Source: Bacteroidota bacterium (GTDB taxonomy: Bacteria; Bacteroidota; Bacteroidia; Bacteroidales; F082). From it: DNA of 64,000 nt. How positions within the stretch are numbered: position 1 is the first letter of the stretch; each line of letters begins with the position of its first letter. The translations under genes were made by a program, and so were the position numbers. Below the pieces are notes generated by a model that saw only the letters and a list, made by a program, of their open reading frames with translations, was not told where the DNA came from and searched no databases. Shown piece after piece: positions 47,551 to 64,000 of the stretch. The stretch is from NCBI GenBank assembly GCA_014382445.1, contig JACNJS010000035.1, positions 158,985 through 222,984 on the forward strand. The letters run 5' to 3'.

Positions 47551-47961
47551 ATGAAAATTCACACCAAAGTAAGGTATGGTTTGAGGGCAATGATTGAGAT
47601 TGCCAATAATAAATCACTAAACGGTCTTTTTCAAAAGCAAATTTCTGCAAATCAAAAAATTCCGTTAAAATATTTGGATTCAATAATCATGGGGTTAAAA
47701 AATACAGGATTAATAGTAAATTTTGCAGGTAAAAGTAGCGGGTATGTACTGTCGAAACAACCAAATGAAATTTCGGTTTATGATATTTATCGAGCATTTG
47801 AACCTGAGTTAACATTGGTGAATTGTTCATATGAAGGTACACAATGTGAGCAATTTGATATTTGCCCTTCCAAAGATTATTGGTACGAACTGAATAATGA
47901 AATAAAAAATAAAATGAAATCATCGAAGCTTCTCGAATTTATAAATGAAAACGCACAATGA
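47551..47961 (+). CDS. Rrf2 family transcriptional regulator (probable Fe-S sensor)
   Basis: This winged-helix regulator of the Rrf2 family is 136 residues long. The N-terminal helix-turn-helix reads KVRYGLRAMIEIANNKSLNGLFQ and ISANQKIPLKYLDSIIMGLKNTGLIVNFAGKSSGYVLSK. It carries three cysteines in the C-terminal region (VNCSYEGTQCEQFDICPSKDYW), the pattern that holds a [2Fe-2S] or [4Fe-4S] cluster in IscR and NsrR. Such proteins sense iron-sulfur status, nitric oxide or redox state. It is the first gene of the cytochrome operon and overlaps the next gene by 4 bp (ATGA), so it probably controls its own operon. Confidence 0.9.
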   Translation: MKIHTKVRYGLRAMIEIANNKSLNGLFQKQISANQKIPLKYLDSIIMGLKNTGLIVNFAGKSSGYVLSKQPNEISVYDIYRAFEPELTLVNCSYEGTQCEQFDICPSKDYWYELNNEIKNKMKSSKLLEFINENAQ

Positions 47962-48515
47962 AAGACTTTAACAACAAATTTCTAAAAATATTTTTTGTAC
48001 TATTAGTATTATTATATGGATGTAGCGAAAGCCATTTTTTTAAGCAGGACATGGTAAATGCTGAAGCATTGACAAGCTCTGATGAACAGAAGAACAATAT
48101 AGCAGTTGCTAAACCACCATTTAGTGAAGATATTTTCCCATGTTCCGAATGCCATGCTGAGCAGGAAACGAATCCTGAAAGAAGATTATTGGATATGCAT
48201 GAAGAGATTGTCGACTCTTTCCATCATGATAGTGAAAACCGTTGGTGTCTTGATTGTCATGACGCCGATAACAGGGATTTCTTGAGACTTGCAAGTGGCA
48301 GTTTATTAAAATTTGAAGAATCATATAAGCTATGCGGACAATGTCATGGTGATAAACTTCGTGATTGGAAGGTTGGAGTTCATGGTAAACGTACTGGTGA
48401 TTGGAATGGAAATAAACAATATCTACTTTGCGTACATTGCCACAATCCGCATTCGCCTAAATTTGAATCATTACAACCGTTGCCCCCTCCTGTTCGACAA
48501 GAGGATATTTATTGA
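47958..48515 (+). CDS. Four-haem cytochrome c lipoprotein (module A)
   Basis: This 185-residue exported protein has a signal ending LLVLLYGCSESHF, where the Cys looks like a lipid-attachment site. It contains four CxxCH haem sites: CSECH, CLDCH, CGQCH and CVHCH, with further His residues for axial ligation. The C-terminus is rich in proline. It starts module A, being followed by the small Tat protein, an iron-sulfur protein and an NrfD protein. It would act in the periplasm or on the outer leaflet as electron acceptor or donor for that membrane complex. Confidence 0.9.
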   Translation: MKDFNNKFLKIFFVLLVLLYGCSESHFFKQDMVNAEALTSSDEQKNNIAVAKPPFSEDIFPCSECHAEQETNPERRLLDMHEEIVDSFHHDSENRWCLDCHDADNRDFLRLASGSLLKFEESYKLCGQCHGDKLRDWKVGVHGKRTGDWNGNKQYLLCVHCHNPHSPKFESLQPLPPPVRQEDIY

Positions 48516-48541
48516 TATATTTTTTAAAATACAGAATAATC

Positions 48542-48781
48542 ATGCAAAAAACTGATAATAGTCCGAGAAGAGATTTTTTAAAAAAGATACCTATAGCAAT
48601 TGTTTCGATTAGTGCTTTTTCTTTTTTGAATCGAAAAAAATCTAATAATCATTCTGAACTGAAATTTAATACTCTGTCGAAGGCTGAAGCGGATGAAATT
48701 ATTAATAATGATAGTTCATCTGGTTCAATGCAACTTAAACCTGCACCGGCCCCTGTTGCACAAAAAAACATAAAGGGATAA
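48542..48781 (+). CDS. Small Tat-exported protein resembling the N-terminus of its neighbour
   Basis: The ORF track opens at 48512, but the Met at residue 11 (48542) starts a twin-arginine signal (NSPRRDFLKKIPIAIVSISA), giving 79 residues. After the signal comes LKFNTLSKAEADEIINND, close to QNFRTLSKAEKNDIVKNLEK in the iron-sulfur protein that follows. It has no cysteine clusters and ends in a Pro/Ala-rich tail. It looks like a truncated duplicate of the neighbour's leader region, kept in frame, and may be a small accessory subunit that rides the Tat pathway. No family is known to me. Confidence 0.7.
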   Translation: MQKTDNSPRRDFLKKIPIAIVSISAFSFLNRKKSNNHSELKFNTLSKAEADEIINNDSSSGSMQLKPAPAPVAQKNIKG

Positions 48782-48813
48782 TTTTATAAATATTGATAAC
48801 GATTTTGTAAAGT

Positions 48814-49713
48814 ATGCAGAAAAAAGAAAAAAATAATTCACGACGGAATTTCTTGAAAAAATTACCTGTTTTGGCTTTGGGAACTGTTGCATTAGCAGGT
48901 TGTAGTTCAGAAGAGTTAGATGAATTTTTTCAACAAAATTTCAGAACATTATCAAAAGCAGAAAAAAATGATATTGTAAAGAATCTTGAGAAAAAGTATT
49001 CTGAAAAATATGGTAAGGAGTTTGTAGTATCAGATAAGCCTGCTACTGAAGGAATTTTATTTGGATATGCTCTCGATTTATCCCGATGTATAGGATGCCG
49101 AAAATGTGTTTATGCTTGTGTTGAGGAAAATAATCAATCTCGTGAACCTCAGGTTCACTGGATACAGGTGCTTCGGATGGAAAATGAAAAGGGTATCGAT
49201 GTGCATTATGCCAATGTTCATTATAATCCTGATTTGGTTCCGGAAAAGGGTCATTTCTACATGCCAGTTGCTTGTCAGCAATGTAGAAATCCTCAATGTA
49301 CTACTGTTTGTCCAACTAAAGCAACCTGGCAAACCGAAGATGGAATTGTTGTAGTTGATTATAACTGGTGTATTGGTTGCCGATATTGTATGGCTGCCTG
49401 TCCTTATGGCGCCAGGCATTTTAATTGGGGTGAGCCAAATATTCCAGATGAAGAGGTTAATCCAATAACTCATTATTTAGGGAATCGGCCAAGAACTAAA
49501 GGTGTTGTCGAGAAATGCACTTTCTGCATTCAACGTGTTCGAGATGGAAAATACCCTTCTTGTGTTGAAATATGCCCTACAGGTTCACGAAAATTTGGAA
49601 ACTTGCTAGACCCTGATAGCGAAATAAGATACATATTAGAAAATAAGCGTGTTCTTGTTTTTAAAGAAGAGCTTAACACACAACCTAAATTCTATTATTT
49701 CTTCGGTGTCTAA
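48814..49713 (+). CDS. Tat-exported 4x[4Fe-4S] electron-transfer subunit (module A)
   Basis: This 299-residue periplasmic ferredoxin is of the NrfC/HybA/PsrB type. It has a twin-arginine signal (SRRNFLKKLPVLALGTVALAG) followed by a Cys (LAGCSSEE) that could be lipidated, then the TLSKAEKNDIV segment. Four cluster sets follow: CIGCRKCVYACVEEN, CQQCRNPQCTTVCPTKA, CIGCRYCMAACPYGARH, and CTFCIQRVRDGKYPSCVEICPTGSRKFG. This is the usual electron wire between an NrfD quinone site and a catalytic or cytochrome partner. No molybdopterin partner is encoded nearby, so the tetrahaem lipoprotein (47958) is the probable partner. Confidence 0.93.
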   Translation: MQKKEKNNSRRNFLKKLPVLALGTVALAGCSSEELDEFFQQNFRTLSKAEKNDIVKNLEKKYSEKYGKEFVVSDKPATEGILFGYALDLSRCIGCRKCVYACVEENNQSREPQVHWIQVLRMENEKGIDVHYANVHYNPDLVPEKGHFYMPVACQQCRNPQCTTVCPTKATWQTEDGIVVVDYNWCIGCRYCMAACPYGARHFNWGEPNIPDEEVNPITHYLGNRPRTKGVVEKCTFCIQRVRDGKYPSCVEICPTGSRKFGNLLDPDSEIRYILENKRVLVFKEELNTQPKFYYFFGV

Positions 49714-49749
49714 TTTTATCTTTTTTAATCATTTGATAAATTAATAATT

Positions 49750-50994
49750 ATGAGTTTTTTACGATTTATAAACGGATCATTTAAAATTATTGTCAATGGA
49801 GGAAGAGTTTATTATTCCTGTATATTTTTTCTGCTTGTATTAATTGTGTGGGGAGCACTTGGGTATTATGATCAACTGCAAGAAGGTCTGATTGTGACAA
49901 ATATGAGAGATTCTGTTTCATGGGGTTTCTATATTGGAAATTTTACTTTTTTAGTAGGGGTTGCAGCAGCTGCAGTTATGCTTGTAATTCCCGCATATAT
50001 ATACGACTGGAAACCAATTAAAGAAATTGTAATTTTTGGCGAAATATTAGCCATTTGCGCTGTTATTATGTGCATAGCTTTTATTGTGGTTGATATTGGA
50101 GAACCACTTCGTTTTTGGCATATGCTTCCTATTGTTGGAACAATGAATTTCCCATCTTCGATTTTGTCGTGGGACTTTTTTGCTCTCTTCACTTATTTTA
50201 TATTAAATTTAGTAATTGTTACACACTTATTATATAAACAATTTCATAAAAAAGAATATAACAAATCCTTCATATTGCCATTGGTATTATTAAGTATTCC
50301 AGCCGCAATAGCAATTCATACTGTAACTGCATTTCTTTTTAATGCTCTTCCTGCCCGACCTTTTTGGAATAGCGCTTTACTTGCTCCCCGGTTTTTAGCT
50401 TCTGCTTTTTGTTCGGGTCCTGCAATACTAATACTACTCTTTCAGGTTCTTCGAAAAACAACAAAATTTGAAATTAAGGATGAAGTTATTTTTACAATTG
50501 CCGAACTAATGGTTTACGCAATGTTTATCTATCTATTCTTTACGGTTTCTGAATTATTTAAAGAATTCTACTCTGATACTGAACATCTTGTTTATTGGGA
50601 ATATTTATTATTAGGAGTTGAGAAAAACAGGGAGATTGTATTTTACAGTTGGTCGTCGATTGCAATGGGCTTCACTGCATTTCTACTATTTTTAATTCCA
50701 AAAACCCGAAAAAACCTTCTCACATTAAATATTGGAGCAGTTTTAATTTATTTCAGTGTTTATATGGAAAAAGGAATAACTTTAATTATACCAGGGTTTA
50801 CTCCCGATTCACTAGGGCAGTATTTATTTTATGTTCCTTCTGATATTGAAATACGTACAGCTGTTATGATTTTCTCAGGTGGTGCATTGCTCTTTACTTT
50901 TATTTCAAAAATATCTATTGCAATTTTATTTGAGGGATTTAGTATTGATAGTTTACAAAAGAAGAGCGTTGAATCGAATACTCAAACCGTTTGA
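49750..50994 (+). CDS. NrfD/PsrC-like membrane subunit (module A)
   Basis: This 414-residue inner-membrane protein has about ten helices and belongs to the NrfD/PsrC group, which oxidises menaquinol or reduces menaquinone next to an iron-sulfur subunit. Features are SWGFYIGNFTFLVGVAAAAVML in the first helices, GEPLRFWHMLPIVGTMNFPSSILSWDFFALF, and PARPFWNSALLAPRFLASAFCSGPA. No haem ligand pattern was noted. It follows the iron-sulfur gene by 36 bp, completing module A (cytochrome / small Tat / Fe-S / NrfD). Confidence 0.9.
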   Translation: MSFLRFINGSFKIIVNGGRVYYSCIFFLLVLIVWGALGYYDQLQEGLIVTNMRDSVSWGFYIGNFTFLVGVAAAAVMLVIPAYIYDWKPIKEIVIFGEILAICAVIMCIAFIVVDIGEPLRFWHMLPIVGTMNFPSSILSWDFFALFTYFILNLVIVTHLLYKQFHKKEYNKSFILPLVLLSIPAAIAIHTVTAFLFNALPARPFWNSALLAPRFLASAFCSGPAILILLFQVLRKTTKFEIKDEVIFTIAELMVYAMFIYLFFTVSELFKEFYSDTEHLVYWEYLLLGVEKNREIVFYSWSSIAMGFTAFLLFLIPKTRKNLLTLNIGAVLIYFSVYMEKGITLIIPGFTPDSLGQYLFYVPSDIEIRTAVMIFSGGALLFTFISKISIAILFEGFSIDSLQKKSVESNTQTV

Positions 50995-51094
50995 TTAATA
51001 AGCACACTAGATTTTTAATAAGTAATATTGTTTGTAATCATAAAATAAATATAATGATCAAAAAACAACTTAACCAACTAACATTTAAATTATT

Positions 51095-51535
51095 ATGCCA
51101 CTTCAAGTAAAACGATTATTGATAGTTTTTGTCCTATTTATTGGGATAATGTTAGGTCTTAAATATTTTCTAACTCCTGAATCATGGAGAGAATATGGAG
51201 CCTATCGCGGAAACGCTCTTACAGAAATTTCAGATAAAGAGGCCAAATATGTTCAAACTGAAACATGTGCTATGTGTCATGATTCCATCGCCGAATTAAA
51301 AACTCAAGGTGCGCATAAGTCAATTCAATGTGAAATTTGTCACGGTCCCGGATATAAGCATATTGATGATGAAAATATTGATATGAACATACCCGACGAC
51401 AATCAATTTTGTATGAGATGTCATTCAAAAAATGCTGCCAGTCCGCAAAGTATAATTAAACAAATTGATGCTGTTGAACACAGTGAAGGTGAAGAATGTA
51501 TAAATTGTCATAATCCACATCAGCCATGGCTATAA
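51095..51535 (+). CDS. Four-haem cytochrome c, membrane-anchored (module B)
   Basis: This 146-residue cytochrome has an N-terminal membrane anchor (VKRLLIVFVLFIGIMLGLKYFL) and four CxxCH sites: CAMCH, CEICH, CMRCH and CINCH. It is shorter than the module A cytochrome and not lipidated. Its last 10 bp overlap the start of the next gene, so translation is coupled. It would receive or deliver electrons at the periplasmic face of the second NrfD module. Confidence 0.9.
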   Translation: MPLQVKRLLIVFVLFIGIMLGLKYFLTPESWREYGAYRGNALTEISDKEAKYVQTETCAMCHDSIAELKTQGAHKSIQCEICHGPGYKHIDDENIDMNIPDDNQFCMRCHSKNAASPQSIIKQIDAVEHSEGEECINCHNPHQPWL

Positions 51536-52290
51536 AAAAAGAAAATTCATCAAGACGCGATTTCATAAAGAACTCCAGCATGTTTGCAGGAGGCATAGTA
51601 TTGGTTTCATTATTGAATCCATTAAAAATGGTTTATGCAACAAAAAAACCTAAAGGTAAGGGTAAGTGGTACGGAATAGGTATTGATATCGAAAAATGTA
51701 TTGGCTGTGCCAGTTGTGCAAGAGCCTGTAAAGTTGAAAACGATGTTCCTAATGAGCCATTTTTCTTTCGAAATTGGGTTGAACAATATACCATCACTAA
51801 TGACGACGAGATTAAAGTTTCATCGCCAAACGGTGGTATTGATGGCTTTAAACAGCCGGTACCTGATGATGAAATTTATAAAACATTTTTTGTACCAAAA
51901 ATGTGTAACCATTGTGCAAAATCACCTTGTACTCAGGTTTGCCCGGTAGGTGCCTCCTTCGAATCTCCCGAGGGTATTGCTTTAGTCGATAAGAGTTATT
52001 GTATAGGTTGCGGATATTGTGTTCAGTCTTGTCCTTACGGTTGTCGCTATATTGATATGGAAAATGGGGTAGTTGATAAATGTACACTTTGCTACCATCG
52101 CTTACAAAAAGGTTTGGATCCTGCATGTATGATGGCTTGCCCAACAGGAGCCAGAATATATGGTGATTTAAATGATAAAGAAAGTGCAGTGTCAGTATTT
52201 ATCAAAGAAAATAATTGTGCCGTATTAAAACCACAATTAAATACAGAGTCTAAATTATTTTATAACGATTTAAGTCAGGAGGTACACTAA
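51526..52290 (+). CDS. Tat-exported 4x[4Fe-4S] electron-transfer subunit (module B)
   Basis: This 254-residue ferredoxin has a twin-arginine signal (NSSRRDFIKNSSMFAGGIVLVSLL) and four cluster motifs: CIGCASCARACKVEN, CNHCAKSPCTQVCPVGASF, CIGCGYCVQSCPYGCRYI and CTLCYHRLQKGLDPACMMACPTGARIYG. It is of the DsrO/NrfC type and smaller than the module A copy. The start codon lies within the last 10 bp of the cytochrome gene, and its stop overlaps the next ATG by one base (TAATG). The tight coupling implies a stoichiometric complex. Confidence 0.93.
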   Translation: MAIKKENSSRRDFIKNSSMFAGGIVLVSLLNPLKMVYATKKPKGKGKWYGIGIDIEKCIGCASCARACKVENDVPNEPFFFRNWVEQYTITNDDEIKVSSPNGGIDGFKQPVPDDEIYKTFFVPKMCNHCAKSPCTQVCPVGASFESPEGIALVDKSYCIGCGYCVQSCPYGCRYIDMENGVVDKCTLCYHRLQKGLDPACMMACPTGARIYGDLNDKESAVSVFIKENNCAVLKPQLNTESKLFYNDLSQEVH

Positions 52291-53486
52291 TGAATAAATA
52301 TGAAACTCTATACGAAGCATTAGCCAACCTCGACGGCTATATTTATCCTAATGAAATTGCCTTAAACTGGGATTTACTAATTGTAATGTATCCCTACGTT
52401 ACCGGACTTGTTGCCGGAGCATTTATCCTTGCATCTTTAAACAGAGTATTTGATATAAAAGCATTACGACCAACGTATGAAATTTCGTTGCTAACAGCGT
52501 TATCTTTTATGTTAGTAGCCACAATGCCGTTAATTACCCATCTTGGTCAGCCCTGGCGCTTCTACGAAATGCTAGTTACACCTCATTTAACTTCTGCAAT
52601 GGCCATTTTTGGTTTTGTGTATTTATGGTATCTAATGGTAGTATTATTACTCGAAATATGGTTTGATTACAGATACGATATGGTTATATGGTCGCAACAA
52701 AAAAAAGGCTTTGTGAAGTTTGTTTATAAAGCACTTACTTTATGGGTTAGTGAAACTTCACCGGAATCGAGAAAAACAGATGAGAAAATCGGCTATTTTA
52801 TTACCGTAGTTGGTATCCCTTCAGCATTTTTACTACATGGATACGTAGGATTTATATTTGGCTCTATTAAAGCAAATCCATGGTGGTCAACCGTTATGAT
52901 GCCTGTAATTTTTATTTTCTCTGCTATGGTTTCAGGAATTGCTCTGGTAATGTTTATTTATATGGGAGTTTCCTATTTGCGTAAACAGAAACCAGATATG
53001 ATGGCATTGGATACAATTGCAAAATATTTATTTTATATACTTATAATAGATTTTACTCTGGAAAGTTTAGACCAAATCCATAGAATTTATGAAGCAGATG
53101 AATCATTTGATATTCTAAAAATACTGGTTCGCGGTAAATTATTCTTTACTTTCTTTATTATGCAAATTGGAGTTGGCGTATTAATTCCACTAACTACTTT
53201 AGGTTTTCTGCAATTTAAAAAACCTAGAGAAAGAATCAGGAAGATTATATATTTAATAATAAGCATTTGTGTGTTGGTTGGTATCTTCTATATGAGATGG
53301 AATGTTGTTATTGGAGGTCAACTTTTCTCAAAAAGTTTCTATGGGTTTACCAGCTACAAGGTTGATTTAATTGGAGGTGCGGATGTTTGGTTATCTGTGT
53401 TATGGTTTATTGTGCCATTTTTTATTTTAGCGTTTCTGTTATGGCTTCTGCCACCCTGGAAAAAAAATCATGAAGCAATGCATTGA
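52290..53486 (+). CDS. NrfD/DsrP-like membrane subunit (module B)
   Basis: This 398-residue polytopic protein of the NrfD family resembles the DsrP/HybB branch. About ten helices, with LNWDLLIVMYPYVTGLVAGAFILAS at the first, ATMPLITHLGQPWRFYEMLVTPHLTSAMAIFG (conserved loop), and GIPSAFLLHGYVGFIFGSIKANPWWSTVMMPVIF. It differs clearly from the module A NrfD, so the two modules probably use different partners or redox potentials. Likely function is quinone-to-periplasm electron transfer. Confidence 0.9.
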   Translation: MNKYETLYEALANLDGYIYPNEIALNWDLLIVMYPYVTGLVAGAFILASLNRVFDIKALRPTYEISLLTALSFMLVATMPLITHLGQPWRFYEMLVTPHLTSAMAIFGFVYLWYLMVVLLLEIWFDYRYDMVIWSQQKKGFVKFVYKALTLWVSETSPESRKTDEKIGYFITVVGIPSAFLLHGYVGFIFGSIKANPWWSTVMMPVIFIFSAMVSGIALVMFIYMGVSYLRKQKPDMMALDTIAKYLFYILIIDFTLESLDQIHRIYEADESFDILKILVRGKLFFTFFIMQIGVGVLIPLTTLGFLQFKKPRERIRKIIYLIISICVLVGIFYMRWNVVIGGQLFSKSFYGFTSYKVDLIGGADVWLSVLWFIVPFFILAFLLWLLPPWKKNHEAMH

Positions 53487-55202: not shown

Positions 55203-55236
55203 AAAAGCTCCACTACTATCTAGTAATGGAGCTTTT
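55203..55236. terminator. Bidirectional intrinsic terminator between convergent operons
   Basis: AAAAGCTCCACTACTA (55203..55218) pairs with TAGTAATGGAGCTTTT (55221..55236), 15 of 16 positions, with a 2-base loop and A/T tracts on both sides. It separates the plus-strand NrfD operon from the minus-strand cytochrome operon and could end both transcripts. Confidence 0.88.
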
Positions 55237-55256: not shown

Positions 55257-55748
55257 TTATTCAGCTGGAGGAATTGGGTGCGAAATCTGCACAAGGTATT
55301 CACTATAGTTGAACCCTTTGTAATGAGGACTTTGATCGTTATGACATTCTAAACATAATTTTTCGGTTGGCATAATCATACCCATTGCTAATGCTTTATC
55401 ACGATCCTTCATAATTGTGTTTGATTTGTAGCCACTGCCCGGTCCATGGCATGTTTCGCAAGATACACCTTCGCTTACTGTTAAGGTTGCAATTAGATCT
55501 TCGTTAACGCTTCCCGCAGTTGAGTGACATTTCAGGCATTTTGGATTATTTACTTCATCGCCTTTAAGTGATTCCATAGCTTTGGCGTGTTTTGTTTCAG
55601 CCCATTGTTTATATTGTGCACCGGTTGCTGGTTTATTATGACACATTTTACATTTAGCAGCTCCAATGTATTCAAATTCCTGAGCTGTAAGGTAATTTCC
55701 CCCTAAAAACAGAAGAAAACTAGCGATTAAAAGAGTTTTAATGTACAT
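55257..55748 (-). CDS. Four-haem cytochrome c554-like protein
   Basis: This 163-residue exported cytochrome has a signal peptide ending NYLTAQEF and four CxxCH motifs: CKMCH, CLKCH, CETCH and CLECH. The pattern YIGAAKCKMCHNKPATGAQYKQWAETKHAKAMESL and VSCETCHGPGSGY matches the cytochrome c554 family, which serves as a soluble periplasmic electron carrier. It is the last gene of the minus-strand operon, 126 bp after the fusion protein. A -7-like element (TACTTTTG, 55807..55814) lies about 60 bp upstream, so it may also have its own promoter. Confidence 0.9.
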   Translation of the reverse strand: MYIKTLLIASFLLFLGGNYLTAQEFEYIGAAKCKMCHNKPATGAQYKQWAETKHAKAMESLKGDEVNNPKCLKCHSTAGSVNEDLIATLTVSEGVSCETCHGPGSGYKSNTIMKDRDKALAMGMIMPTEKLCLECHNDQSPHYKGFNYSEYLVQISHPIPPAE

Positions 55749-55874: not shown

Positions 55875-58682
55875 TTAATAAACTCCTGCAATTAATGAAT
55901 ATATAATTAGTCCCACCATAATTATGCCAAGTGATAAAAATAGGTATCCGAAAAATTTAACTATTTTAATATAAGTAGATGATATTTCCTTTTCAACAGT
56001 TACACTATCTAATCTTCCTGATTCAACCAACTCTTTATATTCTCGTGGCCTGTCTTTCATATATTCATCAAAAGGAACATGGCCGGTAAAAATAACGGTG
56101 TCCATAGGGAATGATTCTGGACGCAGATGCGTATTAAAAAAGTGAATAGTGAATATGAAACCGGTAGCTAACAATGCTTCATCACTATGAATGATTTGAG
56201 CTACGTTAATCGCCCAACCCGGAATGAAATGAGTGAAAAATTCAGGGAACCAAAGTATCAAACCCGATAAGCCAATAACGGCTACTCCCCAAAAAACAGC
56301 CATATAGTCAAATTTCTCCCAATAAGTCCATCTTCCATACTCAGGTCGTGGTCCTTTACCTAAAAACCACTTGATTGATGCTCCAAGATCCTTTATATCC
56401 TGTTTATTAAACATTAATGAATTCTTTCCGAAAAGAAAATCTTTCCCACTTAAACCTTCCTTAGCCCTTAACTGAAACAAAGTTGAAAGGTGGAATGCAA
56501 AATAGACAAATGTAACAATTGCGGCAAACCTGTGTATAGTTCCAGCAGATTTTACTCCGCCTAGCATGTGAGCAATCCATGAAGCCCATTCCATGTGAGC
56601 AAACTTTAATGTCATGCCGGTTAAAGCGAGTAATAAAAAACTCAGAATAACCATAATATGTGTAAATCTCTGGCGTTTATTGAACCTGCGGTAGTATTTG
56701 GTTTTGCCTACCGGAGTATGATGTTTATTTATTTTGCGCTGTTTTAGTGAACGTGGTAACCAAATTAAAGTGTGGAGGCCAAAGAATCCAAAAACAAATA
56801 TAAGCAATGATGTCATGCCCCAAAATGACCAAAATAAAATCGGGTTGTCGTTGTGGGTCGCATGTGTAAGGTATCCTGTAAATTCAAGGGTTACATTGTT
56901 GTGACATTTTGAGCACGTATTTACAATATTCTTATAGCCGACCATTGAATTTGGATTCTCCACTTTGAGAATCTTATGTGCTCCATGACAATCAGAACAT
57001 CTTGCAGCGTCCAAATCTCCCAACATATATGCCTTACCATGATATGTTTCTTTATATGTTCCAGAAAGTTTTTCATGGCACAATCCACATTGAACTGTGA
57101 TTTCGGTCATGAATTTATCCTTATCAATTTCACTAATCACATGTGCTGAGTGACATGTACCGCAGTTTGGATAGGTTTTACTTTCAGTATTGTTGTAGAT
57201 TGAATGGTCGCTGGCAATATAATCATCATAAATACTTTTGTGGCATTTTGCACAGGTGAGGGATATATTATTAGGATGCACCGAAGAAAGTGTATCACTT
57301 TCCTTCAATTCATGATGTGTAGTATGGCAATCAGTACAAACAGCACTTACAAGTAAACCCTTGTCAGTAAGCCCTTTCCCATGAATGCTTGTTGAGTAGT
57401 CGAGATAAGCGTTTACTTCTTTTAATCCGGCCATCTTGTTTGCATCGCCGTCTTCCTTATGGCAACTTCCACAAAGTGTTGGTATCTCTCCACGGTATGT
57501 CGGTGAGGTATCATCAAACCTGGATTTTGTTTCGTGTGTTCCATGGCAATTAGTGCAGTATGGTGCATCTTCCTCTTTTCGTAAAAAAGCCTGCCCATGA
57601 CCACTGTCAAAATATTCGTTTGAAACCTCAATATGACAATTTGAACAATCGATTTTATCAACGGTTTCACAGGGTCTTTTTAAGTTGTGGGATACGCCAG
57701 TATGACATTTGGCACACTGTATGCTCGAATGTACTGAATTGGCTAGATGAGTTAGATCGAAATGAAGCGTATCACCGGTCTGAGATAATAAATATTCGCT
57801 TTTGGAAGCATCTTTCTGATGACATCCTAAACAGGCTTGATTTGGTATAACGTCTTCAATATTTTGATATTCAACTTTATGTGGTGGGTGACAATCGGAG
57901 CATGAAGGTACAGCACCCGGAGATTTTTCCCATAATTCACTTTTAATTACCTTTTTGTGCACTTCTTCAATACGAACGTGGCACTTCATACACGTACGTG
58001 CGATCCGTTTTGGATTAACTGATGAATTTGGGCTTTCGTGTGGTAGAATTAAGTGACTGTTATGGCAGTCGTTACATGTTGCTGTAACAATTAAACCACT
58101 TTGATAAAGACCTCTACCGTGAATGCCCTGACTATAATTTTCGACAATATTGTGCTCATCGATCTTATAAATTCTGGCAACAGGCGCTCCCTCCTTATGA
58201 CAATTCCCGCATAAGATTGGGATATTCATCTTGTAGGTTTTTGAATCTGAATTCCAACGTGATAGTATATCATGTGTGCCATGACATTCTTTACAATCAG
58301 GAGCATATGGTTCGTTCAGGCTAAGGGCCTGGCCATGTATACCTGCAAAAAACTGCATTTCACTATCCTTATGGCATGTACCGCATTCAACTGGTGCTAA
58401 TTTTTTCAGTTTATCGGCATGCATATATTCGTCAGTATTTACATCCGTATGGCATTTAATGCAACTAACTTTATTGTGGACTGAATGACTTAGGACATTC
58501 GTCTTAACAAACATAGAAACAGTTTCCCCATTTTTTTCAGCAATTAGTTCAGGGTCTTCATGGCACATCATGCAGTCCTCGTCCGATTGTGCAATTACAC
58601 CATTAAAGAAAAAAAGAAGTATAATGAAATAACAAGTAGTTACATAACCAAAAAAAAACTTTTGTCTTTTATACTTTATCAT
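55875..58682 (-). CDS. Nineteen-haem cytochrome c fused to a cytochrome b membrane domain
   Basis: This unusual 935-residue protein joins a large multihaem cytochrome to a quinone-type membrane domain. After a signal (ends FFFNGVIAQ) come 19 CxxCH motifs over residues about 35-600, from DCMMCH to NTCSKCHNN. Two stretches are near repeats, each carrying CHGTH, then CGxCHKE, then C..CH at similar spacing, so the region arose by duplication. From about residue 630 come hydrophobic helices with RFTHIMVILSFLLLALTGMTLKF, AGTIHRFAAIVTFVYFAFHLSTLF and FIFTIHFFNTHLRPESFP, the layout of cytochrome b561 or formate dehydrogenase gamma subunits. It could pass electrons from quinol straight through a haem wire. 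No catalytic site is seen. Confidence 0.88.
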   Translation of the reverse strand: MIKYKRQKFFFGYVTTCYFIILLFFFNGVIAQSDEDCMMCHEDPELIAEKNGETVSMFVKTNVLSHSVHNKVSCIKCHTDVNTDEYMHADKLKKLAPVECGTCHKDSEMQFFAGIHGQALSLNEPYAPDCKECHGTHDILSRWNSDSKTYKMNIPILCGNCHKEGAPVARIYKIDEHNIVENYSQGIHGRGLYQSGLIVTATCNDCHNSHLILPHESPNSSVNPKRIARTCMKCHVRIEEVHKKVIKSELWEKSPGAVPSCSDCHPPHKVEYQNIEDVIPNQACLGCHQKDASKSEYLLSQTGDTLHFDLTHLANSVHSSIQCAKCHTGVSHNLKRPCETVDKIDCSNCHIEVSNEYFDSGHGQAFLRKEEDAPYCTNCHGTHETKSRFDDTSPTYRGEIPTLCGSCHKEDGDANKMAGLKEVNAYLDYSTSIHGKGLTDKGLLVSAVCTDCHTTHHELKESDTLSSVHPNNISLTCAKCHKSIYDDYIASDHSIYNNTESKTYPNCGTCHSAHVISEIDKDKFMTEITVQCGLCHEKLSGTYKETYHGKAYMLGDLDAARCSDCHGAHKILKVENPNSMVGYKNIVNTCSKCHNNVTLEFTGYLTHATHNDNPILFWSFWGMTSLLIFVFGFFGLHTLIWLPRSLKQRKINKHHTPVGKTKYYRRFNKRQRFTHIMVILSFLLLALTGMTLKFAHMEWASWIAHMLGGVKSAGTIHRFAAIVTFVYFAFHLSTLFQLRAKEGLSGKDFLFGKNSLMFNKQDIKDLGASIKWFLGKGPRPEYGRWTYWEKFDYMAVFWGVAVIGLSGLILWFPEFFTHFIPGWAINVAQIIHSDEALLATGFIFTIHFFNTHLRPESFPMDTVIFTGHVPFDEYMKDRPREYKELVESGRLDSVTVEKEISSTYIKIVKFFGYLFLSLGIIMVGLIIYSLIAGVY

Positions 58683-58729: not shown

Positions 58730-59338
58730 TTAATGCCACCCATTTATCATACTCTTGAAATTTGCTAATGCTGTTTTTCCAATAGTGCAGAAGTATATAT
58801 GTACAGCCATAAAGATAGAAAGTGCAAATCCTGTTACGATGTGTATCAAATCGACAATATGTATTCCGCTTATGCCAAATAAATCTGTTGGTAATATTTC
58901 AGGGAAGAATAAAGCAGTTCCGGTAATAACGATAATTGGCATAAATACATACATTACAATTACATAGCTTATTTTTTGTAGTGGATTAAATTTTCTGTCA
59001 ATTGATATTGGATAGGGGGCATCTTCATTTTTAAATATTCCAATTGAATAATAACGTAATTGTTTTAAAACACGAACTAACATACCTGTTAAATGAAATT
59101 GGTAATAAGTTCCATTAGAGGTAAACCGGTTGCTAAACAAATAGAATATATATGCAACACACAAAGCAATGCCTGCAATGTCGTGTATTGAAATAGCCCA
59201 ATCAAAACGAATTAAAGAATAATCGTTACTTGAATATTGCAAACTCAATCCGGTAACTATAAGGGTCAGAAATAATAGGGCATTTAACAGATGCCATAAT
59301 CTAACCCAAATTGGATATAGGTAAACTTGATTTTTCAT
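58730..59338 (-). CDS. Cytochrome b561-like membrane protein
   Basis: This 202-residue four-helix membrane protein resembles the b-type subunits of Ni-Fe hydrogenase and formate dehydrogenase. His residues in helices are WVRLWHLLNALLFLTL, WAISIHDIAGIAL, IHIVDLIHIVTGFALSIFMAVHIYF, suitable for two haem b groups. Its start overlaps the stop of the preceding gene by 4 bp, so it is coupled to the 7-haem cytochrome. It probably supplies the quinone-reactive part for that cytochrome. Confidence 0.88.
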   Translation of the reverse strand: MKNQVYLYPIWVRLWHLLNALLFLTLIVTGLSLQYSSNDYSLIRFDWAISIHDIAGIALCVAYIFYLFSNRFTSNGTYYQFHLTGMLVRVLKQLRYYSIGIFKNEDAPYPISIDRKFNPLQKISYVIVMYVFMPIIVITGTALFFPEILPTDLFGISGIHIVDLIHIVTGFALSIFMAVHIYFCTIGKTALANFKSMINGWH

Positions 59339-60273
59339 TTTATAAATATTCTTAAAACGGCGTGAATAAAAATAAGTAGCAACACGAACCCAAATATGAG
59401 TCCGCTCAATACGTTAAGGTAGTAGTTTCTGTTGGCACCTATGATATATGAATCATCCAATGTAGAAGCATTGAAAAAACCATATTTATTTCTTTTTTCT
59501 ATTGCTTGGAATTTATATAAAGAAGACATTAATATCGAATTTTGCGAATGGCATTCAACACATTTTCGAACTGCCTTGTCTTTGGTTTGAACTTTATGAG
59601 CTACCAAAATATTGTTGCTGGTATCTGTATGGCACTCAATACACCTTACATGGGCAAAGTGTGATATTTGATTTGGAAGCCAATCGTGTTTTTCAATAAT
59701 ATTTGGATTTTTATCTGATGAAATAAGCTGATATTTATTTATGTCGGCATGACAGCTTAAACAAATATTATTATCATAAACAATTGTTTCAAGTAAATTT
59801 TGGTTGTTACGTGCGTTTATTTTATAAGTGTGTGGATTGTGGCACATCCAACAAGTAAAATCTTGGCTATGCTTTGTAGAATGAACACTTTCCTGGAATT
59901 GCTGATCTATTTTTGCAAAATTGTAAACTTCATCATCACCTTCATGACAATCGAAACATCCGGGCATGGCTTCCATTTGCAATTCATTGTCGTGAGGGAA
60001 GGTTTTGAAACCATACGAATGACAATCAATACATTCAAACGAACTATGGTTTTGATAATAGTATAATGCAGAATCAATTATCAGATAGGGATTCATTCGA
60101 TTAGTAACATTGCGTTCCAGAATTTCATTGTAAAATGAATAAGTCGGGTTTCCATGGCAATAAAAACACTTGCTGTTTTCGGGAGAATGTTCAACGGATT
60201 CATCTGTTATTTCCTGTGCAATGAGAAATGTGCTAAATAATACTATAAGGTTTATAAATAATAATTTTTTCAT
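59335..60273 (-). CDS. Seven-haem cytochrome c with C-terminal membrane anchor
   Basis: This 312-residue exported protein has a signal ending STFLIAQ and seven CxxCH sites: CFYCH, CIDCH, CFDCH, CWMCH, CLSCH, CIECH and CVECH. A single C-terminal helix (YYLNVLSGLIFGFVLLLIFIHAVLRIFIK) holds it at the membrane. It overlaps the cytochrome b gene by 4 bp. The pair forms a second small quinol-to-haem unit in this operon, parallel to the fused protein at 55875. The terminal acceptor is unknown. Confidence 0.9.
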   Translation of the reverse strand: MKKLLFINLIVLFSTFLIAQEITDESVEHSPENSKCFYCHGNPTYSFYNEILERNVTNRMNPYLIIDSALYYYQNHSSFECIDCHSYGFKTFPHDNELQMEAMPGCFDCHEGDDEVYNFAKIDQQFQESVHSTKHSQDFTCWMCHNPHTYKINARNNQNLLETIVYDNNICLSCHADINKYQLISSDKNPNIIEKHDWLPNQISHFAHVRCIECHTDTSNNILVAHKVQTKDKAVRKCVECHSQNSILMSSLYKFQAIEKRNKYGFFNASTLDDSYIIGANRNYYLNVLSGLIFGFVLLLIFIHAVLRIFIK

Positions 60274-60344: not shown

Positions 60345-61838
60345 TTAATACAATTCCTTATGGCATTCAAAACAAGTCATCTCTTTCCAATCGTCCATTT
60401 CAAAAGGGTGGTTGAAAACTAATGAGCTATCAGCATTGGCATATTCCATATCACCGGCAGGTCCTTGAGCTTTTATTGAATGACACACGGTGCAATCTCT
60501 TGAAATTACATGTCCATCATCGCTTATGAAGTTATCGTTATGACATCTTATACATCCTAACGTCTCAACATGACCCATATAGTTTGGATACTGACTCCAG
60601 TCGGCTTTCATAGTTGGGAAAATGTTATTCTTATAACCAGTTTGTATAGCTTCAATTGCTTTTGGAATCACCTCTGGGTTAGCAATAACAAAATCTTCAT
60701 AGTTTTCATCGTAATACTTATTTACCTTATTTGATATGTAATTCATAGCACTGTCAGTGGTAGGAAATTCTTCAACAAGAATCCCCATTATATAACTTTT
60801 AATCTCCGGAATATCTAATGATATTTCACCTGAGGCAATTGCAGCATCAATAAATATTGCTGGTGAAAGATAATCATGAGATGGTCGGTTATGACAATCT
60901 AAACAATCCATTGTCCTAGTTTCGCTAGATTGAATAGAATCAGTAATTAGATTGTTCTTAAAAACTCTTACTTTTCCGGTGCTAAGATTTGTGTATTTTA
61001 CTTCTGTTATTGAATCTCTTTTCCAATTTGAAACATAGTCAATTTTAACATCTGGATTAATATGCCAGTGGATTCCTTCTGATTGTCCTAAAGCACTATG
61101 TTCAGGACCTGTTTTCATTAGTAGTTGAATATTCCACTCAGTGTTTTCTTCATCTGATAAAAAGTGTTTTTTTGTAACGAACTTTGGATCATAAAACTTT
61201 TGTGGCCAATGGCATTTTTCACATGTTTCCTGAGCGGGCCTTAAGTTGTGTATTGGAGTTTCGATAGGCGTAGGATATGCTTTTGCAATTACAGAGTAAA
61301 CCTGATACATGCCTGAAAGTTTTGATTTTACATACCAGTTTACTCCAGTACCTACATGGCATTCAACACAACTAACACGTGCATGTGCTGAATTGTGGTA
61401 AGTAACATATTCAGGTTCCATTACTGAGTGGCATAATGTACCGCAAAATTCGTTTGATTCGGTATAATGAAAAACCTCATAACTGCCAAGGGCTGTAAAT
61501 AATAAGAAGATAGCTGTTCCGATAACAAAGATAGCAACAACCATTCGTTGGCTGGCGTCATTTAAGTTAACAATGGGAAATTTAACTTCTCGATGAACTT
61601 CTTTACTCTTGTCTCTTTTCATTTTTCTCACCGTTCCGATTGGGATCAGAATCAGGCCGATAATTAGAAAAACAGGTAGTATTATAAATGTAAATAAACC
61701 CAAATAATTTCCTACATCAGTTGGAAAAATGAATGTGATTGCTAATGTAAAAACAATCAGCAAAAAACTGACAGAAGCCAAAACAGCACCGGAAATTGTT
61801 GTCCAGCTATAAAATGATTTTGGTAGTTTCATTATCAA
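60345..61838 (-). CDS. NapC/NirT-like multihaem cytochrome (seven haem sites)
   Basis: This 497-residue protein has two membrane segments in the N-terminus (SGAVLASVSFLLIVFTLAITF and YLGLFTFIILPVFLIIGLILI), a further helix (RMVVAIFVIGTAIFLLFTALG), and then a periplasmic part with six canonical CxxCH sites (CVECH, CEKCH, CLDCH, CIRCH, CTVCH, CFECH) plus one CX3CH site, FCGTLCHSVMEPE. That first noncanonical site corresponds to the NapC/NrfH quinol-side haem. The NapC family takes electrons from menaquinol and delivers them to periplasmic reductases. Here no reductase gene follows, so the partner may be the cytochromes downstream. The two possible starts (Met1, Met3) are almost identical. Confidence 0.9.
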   Translation of the reverse strand: MIMKLPKSFYSWTTISGAVLASVSFLLIVFTLAITFIFPTDVGNYLGLFTFIILPVFLIIGLILIPIGTVRKMKRDKSKEVHREVKFPIVNLNDASQRMVVAIFVIGTAIFLLFTALGSYEVFHYTESNEFCGTLCHSVMEPEYVTYHNSAHARVSCVECHVGTGVNWYVKSKLSGMYQVYSVIAKAYPTPIETPIHNLRPAQETCEKCHWPQKFYDPKFVTKKHFLSDEENTEWNIQLLMKTGPEHSALGQSEGIHWHINPDVKIDYVSNWKRDSITEVKYTNLSTGKVRVFKNNLITDSIQSSETRTMDCLDCHNRPSHDYLSPAIFIDAAIASGEISLDIPEIKSYIMGILVEEFPTTDSAMNYISNKVNKYYDENYEDFVIANPEVIPKAIEAIQTGYKNNIFPTMKADWSQYPNYMGHVETLGCIRCHNDNFISDDGHVISRDCTVCHSIKAQGPAGDMEYANADSSLVFNHPFEMDDWKEMTCFECHKELY

Positions 61839-61914
61839 TAAAATTTGAAGAAGCCAAGAAGAATTTAAAGTAATAAGTGCTACTTTAGTGCAGCACCGTT
61901 GAATAATTCATTAA

Positions 61915-62826
61915 CTAAAATCCCCATAACCTTGTAATGTTGAACCCTATACGGAATTCGCCATCAGTCCAGTCGCTTTTATTCCACAAATAATTATCCT
62001 GAGGGAGAATTCCGTTTGAAGTCGTAATAAATATCTCAAAAGCATGAGTGGCAGTACCAACCTGATAGCCGATACCGAAATTTGGTAATGGACGATTTGT
62101 TACTGTAGTGTTTTCAGATATTGACTCAATTTCCAATGGTATTGAATAGTGGAAAACTAAAGATGATTGTGGTGAGAATTTTACTCTTCCCATAACCCCG
62201 ATACCTATTACATCATGGTCCATTCCTTTTACGCCGGCAATATCTGCTGGTACTGAATTATAATGTGTAAAACTTCCATTAACTGCAAATGAGAACCAAT
62301 CATTAAATTTACGACTAACAATTAATTGTGTAAAGTACGATAACCTGTTTGTAAATTTAAAAGCCGAGTCGGCAGTAGCAGTAGTAAATATCTCTTTGTT
62401 TCTGCCATCGATTGCCATATTTCCGTATAATGTAACACTAACCGGAATTGTATTTTTTCGGGTTTGTTGAAGAATGTTGTATTTAATCTGGAAATCACTA
62501 TACATGTTCTTTCTGGTGATACCATATCCCACCATCAGGTTATCAAGTATAGCATAATTTAATCCCATTCGTGTGTTGGCTGAAGGAGCATAAATTCCCC
62601 ACAAATCAGAAATACCATTGTTTTTAATTAAACCAAACCTGTGCTGAATTTGCAATTCAAGTGTTTTCTGTTCGGGAATAACCGAAGTTTGTTCGTCAAT
62701 TATTAGTCCACCGGTAAACATTTCACTTACTGGTTTGTCTTTTTTCTTTTTAGCTTCTTCATCTTGTGCTAGAATAACCCCAACACCGAAGATCATTACA
62801 AGGAAAAATATTAAATGTTTTTTCAT
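61915..62826 (-). CDS. DUF5777 family outer-membrane beta-barrel protein
   Basis: This 303-residue protein has a signal peptide (ends GVGVILAQDEE), then a charged stretch (EEAKKKKDKPVSEMF), then the barrel: GGLIIDEQTSVIPEQKTLELQIQHRFG, a family-like opening with alternating residues to the C-terminus, which ends LWGF in a terminal aromatic. It matches the DUF5777 barrel family of Bacteroidota, of unknown function. As it lies inside the multihaem operon, between the NapC-like gene and a monohaem lipoprotein, it may form the outer-membrane sleeve for a cytochrome, in the manner of a porin-cytochrome conduit. That role is inference. Confidence 0.8.
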   Translation of the reverse strand: MKKHLIFFLVMIFGVGVILAQDEEAKKKKDKPVSEMFTGGLIIDEQTSVIPEQKTLELQIQHRFGLIKNNGISDLWGIYAPSANTRMGLNYAILDNLMVGYGITRKNMYSDFQIKYNILQQTRKNTIPVSVTLYGNMAIDGRNKEIFTTATADSAFKFTNRLSYFTQLIVSRKFNDWFSFAVNGSFTHYNSVPADIAGVKGMDHDVIGIGVMGRVKFSPQSSLVFHYSIPLEIESISENTTVTNRPLPNFGIGYQVGTATHAFEIFITTSNGILPQDNYLWNKSDWTDGEFRIGFNITRLWGF

Positions 62827-62848
62827 TTTCTTACAGTTTTAAGGTTTA

Positions 62849-63232
62849 TTAATTGTTACGAGCTCCTTCTTCTATCCAATATAGTAAAAGAGTTGCCTGT
62901 GCTGCTGTGTATTTTTTGTAATGATTCCCATCAGGCAGAGGGTGAGTATATATCCTGCTTAACGGAGGATCATCTGTATTTACAAGTCCCATTCCGGTAA
63001 TGCTACTGTAAGCATTATCAGCAGTAAGATCAGGTTGAGTTCCTCCTGTGCCGTGACATCCGGTACAGTTTTGAGCAACCCAAATAGGTACAATCTCTAA
63101 AGAAAAGCTAGTTGTGTCACCTGGTGGCGGCGGCGGAATAATGGGTTCTACAAGGAATTTATACTGGCATGAGGCCACCATAATCATTATAAATGCTACC
63201 ATTACAATCCCAACAAAATGTAATTTATTCAT
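62849..63232 (-). CDS. Monohaem cytochrome c lipoprotein
   Basis: This is a 127-residue exported protein with a lipobox (IMVASCQYKF, Cys22), a proline-rich linker (IIPPPPPGDTT) and one haem site, QNCTGCHGTGG. The haem domain resembles small cytochrome c (DUF1588/PSD-type) folds with a C-terminal helix TLLLYWIEEGARNN. It is the first gene of the minus-strand operon, 22 bp before the DUF5777 gene. It could be a surface-exposed haem protein or haem carrier for the barrel. The FNR-like site at 63353..63366 lies about 120 bp upstream. Confidence 0.85.
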   Translation of the reverse strand: MNKLHFVGIVMVAFIMIMVASCQYKFLVEPIIPPPPPGDTTSFSLEIVPIWVAQNCTGCHGTGGTQPDLTADNAYSSITGMGLVNTDDPPLSRIYTHPLPDGNHYKKYTAAQATLLLYWIEEGARNN

Positions 63233-63438: not shown

Positions 63439-63648
63439 AGTATTAATTTAAATGGCAAAGTTTATAATAGTGATTCTTTTCACACGCAACTTACACGACA
63501 GGATATTGGTGATATGTCGGCAATGACCAAGGAGAGTGCTACAAGGGCATTAAAAGAATTTGAAAGTGAAGGAATAATTAATTTCAATTCGTACAATATC
63601 AGAATCTTAAATAAAGAATCGCTTAAAAAAATTAGTAAAACCGGGTAA
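63439..63648 (+). pseudogene. Crp/Fnr family regulator, DNA-binding C-terminal remnant
   Basis: An open stretch of 69 codons, starting after an in-frame stop (63436), encodes the helix-turn-helix end of a Crp/Fnr regulator: LTRQDIGDMSAMTKESATRA then LKEFESEGIINFNSYNIRIL and a short tail to the stop at 63646..63648. No ATG lies at a sensible position, and the cNMP-binding sensor domain is absent. The upstream 200 bp carry no trace of it in any frame. It therefore looks like the leftover of a deleted regulator. It is not in the ORF track. The remainder of the 641-bp gap 63233-63873 holds only the FNR-like site. Confidence 0.72.
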
Positions 63649-63873: not shown

Positions 63874-64000
63874 ATGAGTTCCGCAACCAACAAAATTTTA
63901 CTATTGTTTTTGTGTGTGATGAATTTTCAATCAGTTGCCCAGATAGAATTTACTACATACACAAAAGACAACGGCCTTCCTTCCTCAAATGTACTTTTTA
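63874..64000 (+). CDS. Probable two-component sensor with propeller repeats, N-terminal part (runs off window)
   Basis: The last 127 bp encode the first 42 residues of an exported protein: a signal peptide (MSSATNKILLLFLCVMNFQSV) followed by QIEFTTYTKDNGLPSSNVLF. The motif Y-x-x-x-x-GLPS-S-x-V is the typical opening of the periplasmic propeller (Reg_prop) in Bacteroidota hybrid or other two-component sensors. The histidine kinase part cannot be seen. It is separated from the cytochrome region by the Crp/Fnr remnant. Confidence 0.65.
   Translation, partial: MSSATNKILLLFLCVMNFQSVAQIEFTTYTKDNGLPSSNVLF

Follow-up and report, generated by a model that had tools for sequence, protein, structure and literature searches.

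A DUF5777 outer-membrane barrel is linked to a monohaem lipoprotein in multihaem cytochrome operons of Bacteroidota

Introduction

The conduits of Geobacter are recognised by three elements, among them an outer-membrane beta protein and a redox lipoprotein (PMC6148476). At the inner membrane, Geobacter-type ImcH is a protein of 495-519 residues with three N-terminal transmembrane (TM) segments, an adjacent CX3CH motif and six CX2CH motifs, while CbcL, MtrH and MtoC combine a multihaem cytochrome c half (3-23 motifs) with a C-terminal FdnI/HydC-like cytochrome b (PMC6295460). OcwA, a surface terminal reductase of the NrfA family, acts on both soluble and insoluble acceptors (PMC6703420). Our literature search for a Bacteroidota counterpart of such a system returned nothing useful, and DUF5777 gave no match by name among 5.39 million open papers. 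Here we analysed a stretch of 64,000 nucleotides (the window) from a Bacteroidota bacterium (assembly GCA_014382445.1, contig JACNJS010000035.1, positions 158,985-222,984). An earlier note on this DNA had placed a DUF5777 barrel beside a monohaem lipoprotein inside a multihaem operon, and had likened it, though made of unrelated parts, to a porin-cytochrome conduit.

Results

Seven genes on the minus strand form one run, from position 63232 down to 55257, which comprises LCYT, DUF5777 and five further cytochrome genes. LCYT (62849-63232) encodes a lipid-anchored monohaem cytochrome c of 127 residues with a VASC lipobox, a CTGCH motif and a Pro-rich linker, and is followed after 22 bp by the gene for the DUF5777 protein (61915-62826; 303 residues), a predicted 12-stranded outer-membrane beta-barrel. 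Then come an ImcH-type inner-membrane quinol oxidase (60345-61838; 497 residues), a seven-haem cytochrome c with a C-terminal TM helix (59335-60273; 312 residues), a cytochrome b561-type subunit (58730-59338; 202 residues; PF01292, E=2.3e-23), a 19-haem cytochrome c with a C-terminal FdnI-like cytochrome b domain (55875-58682; 935 residues) and, as the last gene, a four-haem c554-type periplasmic cytochrome (55257-55748; 163 residues; PF13435, E=5.1e-14); the seven-haem and cytochrome b561 genes overlap by 4 bp. A terminator-like hairpin of 15 pairs with a T tail (55203-55236, minus strand) closes the run. The hairpin search also returned a small hairpin between the DUF5777 and ImcH-type genes (61876-61897, minus strand), which could reduce expression downstream of DUF5777; Rfam found no RNA elements near the operon. 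The end of the window is also that of the contig (222984), and the view of the locus stops at 64000 on the upstream side of the run. The gene content described by the earlier note is thus borne out by the PF19089 match (E=1.2e-72), by the lipobox and CXXCH motif of the lipoprotein and by the seven-gene run.

Two neighbouring regions lie on the plus strand. At 63439-63648 we found the remnant of a Crp/FNR-type regulator, consisting of the DNA-binding end only, with no start and with stops upstream; relatives carry at this position an intact, divergent Crp-type gene of 231 residues. Convergent with the operon, 47551-53486 encodes a regulator judged Rrf2-like on visual inspection, a pair of small tetrahaem cytochromes and, in tandem, two FeS/NrfD-like modules, of the same FeS/NrfD kind as used by the type C operons described below.

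We searched for DUF5777 with the Pfam profile in 41 relatives, 29 of which were positive, and among named genomes with an alignment built for type A, which gave 80 DUF5777 loci; 69 named type A loci were read for neighbours, and a simple ORF caller served to define the genes around DUF5777. Phylum-wide, 154 of 395 sampled Bacteroidota genomes carry DUF5777. Type A, the arrangement of the window, reads monohaem lipoprotein, DUF5777, class I monohaem cytochrome (where present), seven-haem cytochrome with cytochrome b, and ImcH-type oxidase, in variable order; the 19-haem and c554 genes belong to a subset of type A loci only. Type B consists of a monohaem lipoprotein, an OB-fold (tRNA_anti-like) protein, YceI and DUF5777 (by Pfam), with no quinol oxidase. 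Type C, in Cytophagales, runs from a YceI-containing protein through an EB_dh/haem lipoprotein, LCYT and DUF5777 to a DsrO-like FeS protein, NrfD and a class I cytochrome. A tree of 107 DUF5777 proteins, built by a quick method, sets A and C apart from B (branch SH-aLRT 99).

In 89 of 90 type A loci (21 of 21 in relatives and 68 of 69 named loci, two sets that overlap and are partly redundant), a gene with a CXXCH motif is found no further than one gene from DUF5777. In contrast, the control barrel OMP_b-brl_2 of the same genomes has such a neighbour in 0 of 20 cases (Fisher p ~5e-21, a value inflated by related genomes). The neighbourhood survey that the earlier note called for bears out the association across Bacteroidota. 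LCYT is directly upstream of DUF5777 in 67 of the 69 named type A loci; downstream, 44 of these loci have the ImcH-type gene, 63 the seven-haem gene and 17 all three quinol oxidases. In the phylum-wide sample, a monohaem LCYT/LCB gene lies no more than three genes from DUF5777 in 27 of 39 loci, the other 12 showing no monohaem partner within that distance. These observations confirm that the adjacency of DUF5777 and LCYT is a link that is neither local nor due to chance; shared descent can be part of the cause of its conservation.

Some loci carry further genes. A Cyclobacteriaceae locus encodes, directly upstream of LCYT, a single lipoprotein with both an EB_dh (haem b) domain and a CXXCH motif (L144:8240-9517, plus strand). 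Near clade B-like DUF5777 in one lineage lies a two-haem cytochrome of ~345 residues with no clear family (L212:7788-8810, L217, L195). Several type A operons end with a fused ResB/CcsB cytochrome c maturation gene (L131:14819-17941, plus strand), and in one Marinilabiliaceae genome the gene after DUF5777 and the class I cytochrome encodes a methyl-accepting-type sensor with a CXXCH motif (L120:11482-12948, plus strand).

The third gene of the run had been described as NapC-like. Its NapC/NirT match stands (E=1.3e-13), but by the full published signature it appears better named ImcH-type: TM segments are predicted at 19-37, 47-65 and 99-117, followed by CX3CH at 132 and six CX2CH motifs, and this CX3CH and the six CX2CH are kept in 47 of 47 ImcH-type homologues. 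The given start is TTG, with an ATG 6 bases inside. The 935-residue protein, with 19 CX2CH motifs and then a formate dehydrogenase gamma-like region (E=8e-11), fits the CbcL/MtrH/MtoC type by layout. The seven-haem cytochrome and the cytochrome b561 encoded side by side look CbcBA-like, by layout only. For this we take CbcA to have seven haems. ImcH-type and type A DUF5777 proteins co-occur: among the 41 relatives 17 have both, four DUF5777 only, one ImcH only and 19 neither (p=6e-7, which ignores shared descent), and outside the genus the corresponding counts are 12, 4, 0 and 17. The relatives' class I monohaem cytochrome had no match in this genome in one search, run without a positive control.

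LCYT itself has one CXXCH motif and a weak Pfam match to Cytochrome_CBB3. The motif is CX2CH in 79 of 87 LCYTs, and 77 of these 79 have a His among their 45 C-terminal residues, 66 of them with no Met; it is CX4CH in the other eight, which have Met in 8 of 8 and His in none. The C-terminal His is likely to be the distal haem ligand, and the family is likely to contain a ligand switch, from His-His ligation with CX2CH to His-Met ligation with CX4CH, so that the two forms would have different redox potentials. A linker between lipid anchor and haem domain is always present; it has 14-26 residues (median 19), 20% of them Pro, and is net acidic.

The DUF5777 protein, encoded by a single copy in the genome, matches PF19089 over its full length (244.6 bits against a cut-off of 23.1; profile positions 1-247 of 247) and has a signal peptide and a C-terminal Phe. 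AlphaFold, run with 38 sequences, predicted a 12-strand barrel (pLDDT 84, pTM 0.81), for which the best Foldseek matches were FapF (top), NanC, COG4313 and KdgM; phmmer against the PDB gave short matches only, most of them to designed SAKe proteins and none to a barrel. By standard barrel geometry, with the shear number assumed, the backbone diameter is ~21-24 Å for 12 strands as against ~47-48 Å for 26. With side chains counted, the modelled barrel is therefore too narrow for a folded haem domain, an outcome that the earlier note had named as speaking against its reading; it resembles the narrow NanC, KdgM and FapF barrels. By strand parity rather than coordinates, the lumen is polar and the exterior hydrophobic on every strand, with the conserved residues R86, D111, K115, Q167, K173 and R214 facing inward. 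We also considered a haem held in the lumen by invariant His residues; it is unsupported because all three, H62, H188 and H261, fall on the outward side, near the rims.

In genome G017 a natural fusion gene joins a class I cytochrome c to the N-terminal end of the barrel protein (L069:2725-3933, minus strand; cytochrome c E=3e-13, DUF5777 E=6e-48), and a monohaem lipoprotein gene comes next. The fusion was seen once, and it occupies a long branch of the DUF5777 tree. The N-termini of outer-membrane barrels point to the periplasm, hence the fused cytochrome would sit at the periplasmic mouth, and the fusion supports a contact on that side.

Set beside a Geobacter conduit, the operon encodes the integral outer-membrane beta protein, as DUF5777, and, as predicted from sequence, the outer-membrane redox lipoprotein, as LCYT with its lipobox and CXXCH. 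In place of a multihaem periplasmic cytochrome that enters the barrel, we found a four-haem c554-type protein here and a monohaem class I cytochrome in relatives. No MtrB or PioB scored above the family cut-off in the 41 relatives. Literal insertion of a cytochrome into DUF5777, as in a porin-cytochrome complex, was set aside in view of the strand number and barrel geometry. The same genome holds elsewhere (G000:C5:13594-18517; L252:3595-8518), 20-haem and 22-haem cytochromes with a 535-residue protein that has a signal peptide, a long barrel-like C-terminal part and no Pfam match; the cluster adjoins an FAD/4Fe-4S oxidoreductase. Of the 21 type A genomes 13 encode a relative of the 535-residue protein, against 2 of 20 others (p=6e-4; 15 of 41 in total), and some of the eight type A genomes without one are incomplete assemblies. 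This cluster appears to be a better candidate for a trans-membrane conduit than DUF5777, and the DUF5777-LCYT pair is therefore left as a separate outer-membrane station.

Two genes upstream of DUF5777, and upstream of LCYT, 51 of the 69 named type A loci encode a six-haem lipoprotein with a collagen-like stalk. In this genome it lies on another contig (G000:C48), with 40% identity to the query and two flanking Crp-type regulators. Its best match is OcwA both in a profile search (6i5b, E=9e-14) and, for a model of pLDDT 76, in Foldseek (E=1.5e-6, TM 0.47 by query), the next match being the Carboxydothermus S-layer cytochrome. By these matches the protein would combine an NrfA-type haem core with a C-terminal helix bundle, as expected of the OcwA/NrfA family.

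Discussion

Because ImcH-, CbcL- and CbcBA-like genes and an OcwA-like lipoprotein are linked to it, DUF5777 can be placed in a respiratory chain apparently of extracellular type, and we give about an even chance to the reading that it is an outer-membrane channel of this chain on which a cytochrome docks. Menaquinol would be oxidised by exchangeable inner-membrane modules, here the ImcH-type, CbcBA-like and CbcL-like enzymes and in Cytophagales an FeS/NrfD module. Electrons would then pass to small periplasmic cytochromes, of class I monohaem type in many relatives and tetrahaem c554-type here, and from these to LCYT, held at the outer membrane against DUF5777 so that the pair forms the outer-membrane station. 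DUF5777 would most likely anchor and orient LCYT and, as a narrow channel lined with polar residues, pass a small solute (acceptor, shuttle or counter-ions) rather than form a sleeve for a haem protein. The surface six-haem lipoprotein is the probable terminal reductase; since OcwA reduces soluble as well as insoluble acceptors, a soluble acceptor would be equally possible. Clade B, where the companions of DUF5777 include YceI and an OB-fold protein but a quinol oxidase is lacking, suggests that the respiratory role may be neither ancestral nor general.

The first alternative is that DUF5777 is a factor for surface display or stability, which helps to bring LCYT and the six-haem lipoprotein to the outer leaflet, or through which the LCYT linker is threaded, and which itself takes no part in redox chemistry or transport. 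Slam and the RcsF-OMP pairs would be models for such a factor. The Pro-rich linker could indeed thread a narrow barrel, the top fold match, FapF, is a 12-strand exporter, and a second lipoprotein adjoins the pair in most named type A loci; but flexible linkers are common among lipoproteins, clade B keeps the pair without the six-haem lipoprotein, and the natural fusion partner is a periplasmic-type cytochrome and not a lipoprotein. The display role is unlikely.

Still less likely is a general envelope function, in which DUF5777 would be a small-solute channel for YceI-type proteins and the cytochrome operon secondary, its genes being neighbours for regulation only. YceI lies within three genes of DUF5777 in 30 of the 39 phylum-wide loci and recurs in a Cytophagales type C locus, whereas it is the monohaem lipoprotein that clades A, B and C share as a neighbour, type A loci are without YceI, and DUF5777 is found fused to a cytochrome c.

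Least likely, a true trans-outer-membrane conduit, in which DUF5777 and LCYT pass electrons with LCYT partly inserted or a cofactor in the barrel (compare the MtrCAB/OmcB complexes), has for it two of the three Geobacter elements, the lack of MtrB/PioB above the cut-off in the 41 relatives and the eight of 21 type A genomes with no other candidate, and against it a narrow, polar and charged lumen, a single haem unable to span a membrane, invariant His residues that face outward and the 20-/22-haem cluster with its large barrel. It is likewise a long shot that LCYT and DUF5777 take electrons across the outer membrane in a novel manner, the multihaem wire being replaced by a lipoprotein with one haem and a narrow barrel of 12 strands, in whose lumen a cofactor is bound or a shuttle diffuses.

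On the docking-channel reading, DUF5777 gains a first testable role, through the monohaem lipoprotein and, in one clade, through ImcH/CbcL-type oxidases and an OcwA-type surface reductase. The locus points to a little-described respiration of extracellular type in Bacteroidales, some carriers of which are in culture (Draconibacterium, Sunxiuqinia, Maribellus and Carboxylicivirga).

MtrCAB, OmbB-OmaB-OmcB of Geobacter and ExtABCD likewise join a barrel to a redox lipoprotein and are fed by multihaem inner-membrane quinol oxidases. However, porin-cytochrome conduits have 18-26 strands whereas 12 are predicted for DUF5777, LCYT has one haem, and the operon encodes no multihaem protein that could fill the barrel. 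The 12-strand outer-membrane channels NanC, KdgM and FapF share the strand number of DUF5777 (TM by target at most 0.79) without sequence similarity to it. OcwA of Thermincola potens, the best profile and fold match of the relatives' surface lipoprotein, has nine haems against six, and the lipoprotein, encoded outside the window, differs in its lipid anchor and collagen-like stalk and in its Gram-negative host. Compared with ImcH, CbcL and CbcBA of Geobacter, the window holds the complete ImcH signature, a CbcL-type layout and a pair resembling CbcBA; in contrast to Geobacter, all three oxidase types stand in one operon, headed by LCYT and DUF5777, in a member of the Bacteroidota.
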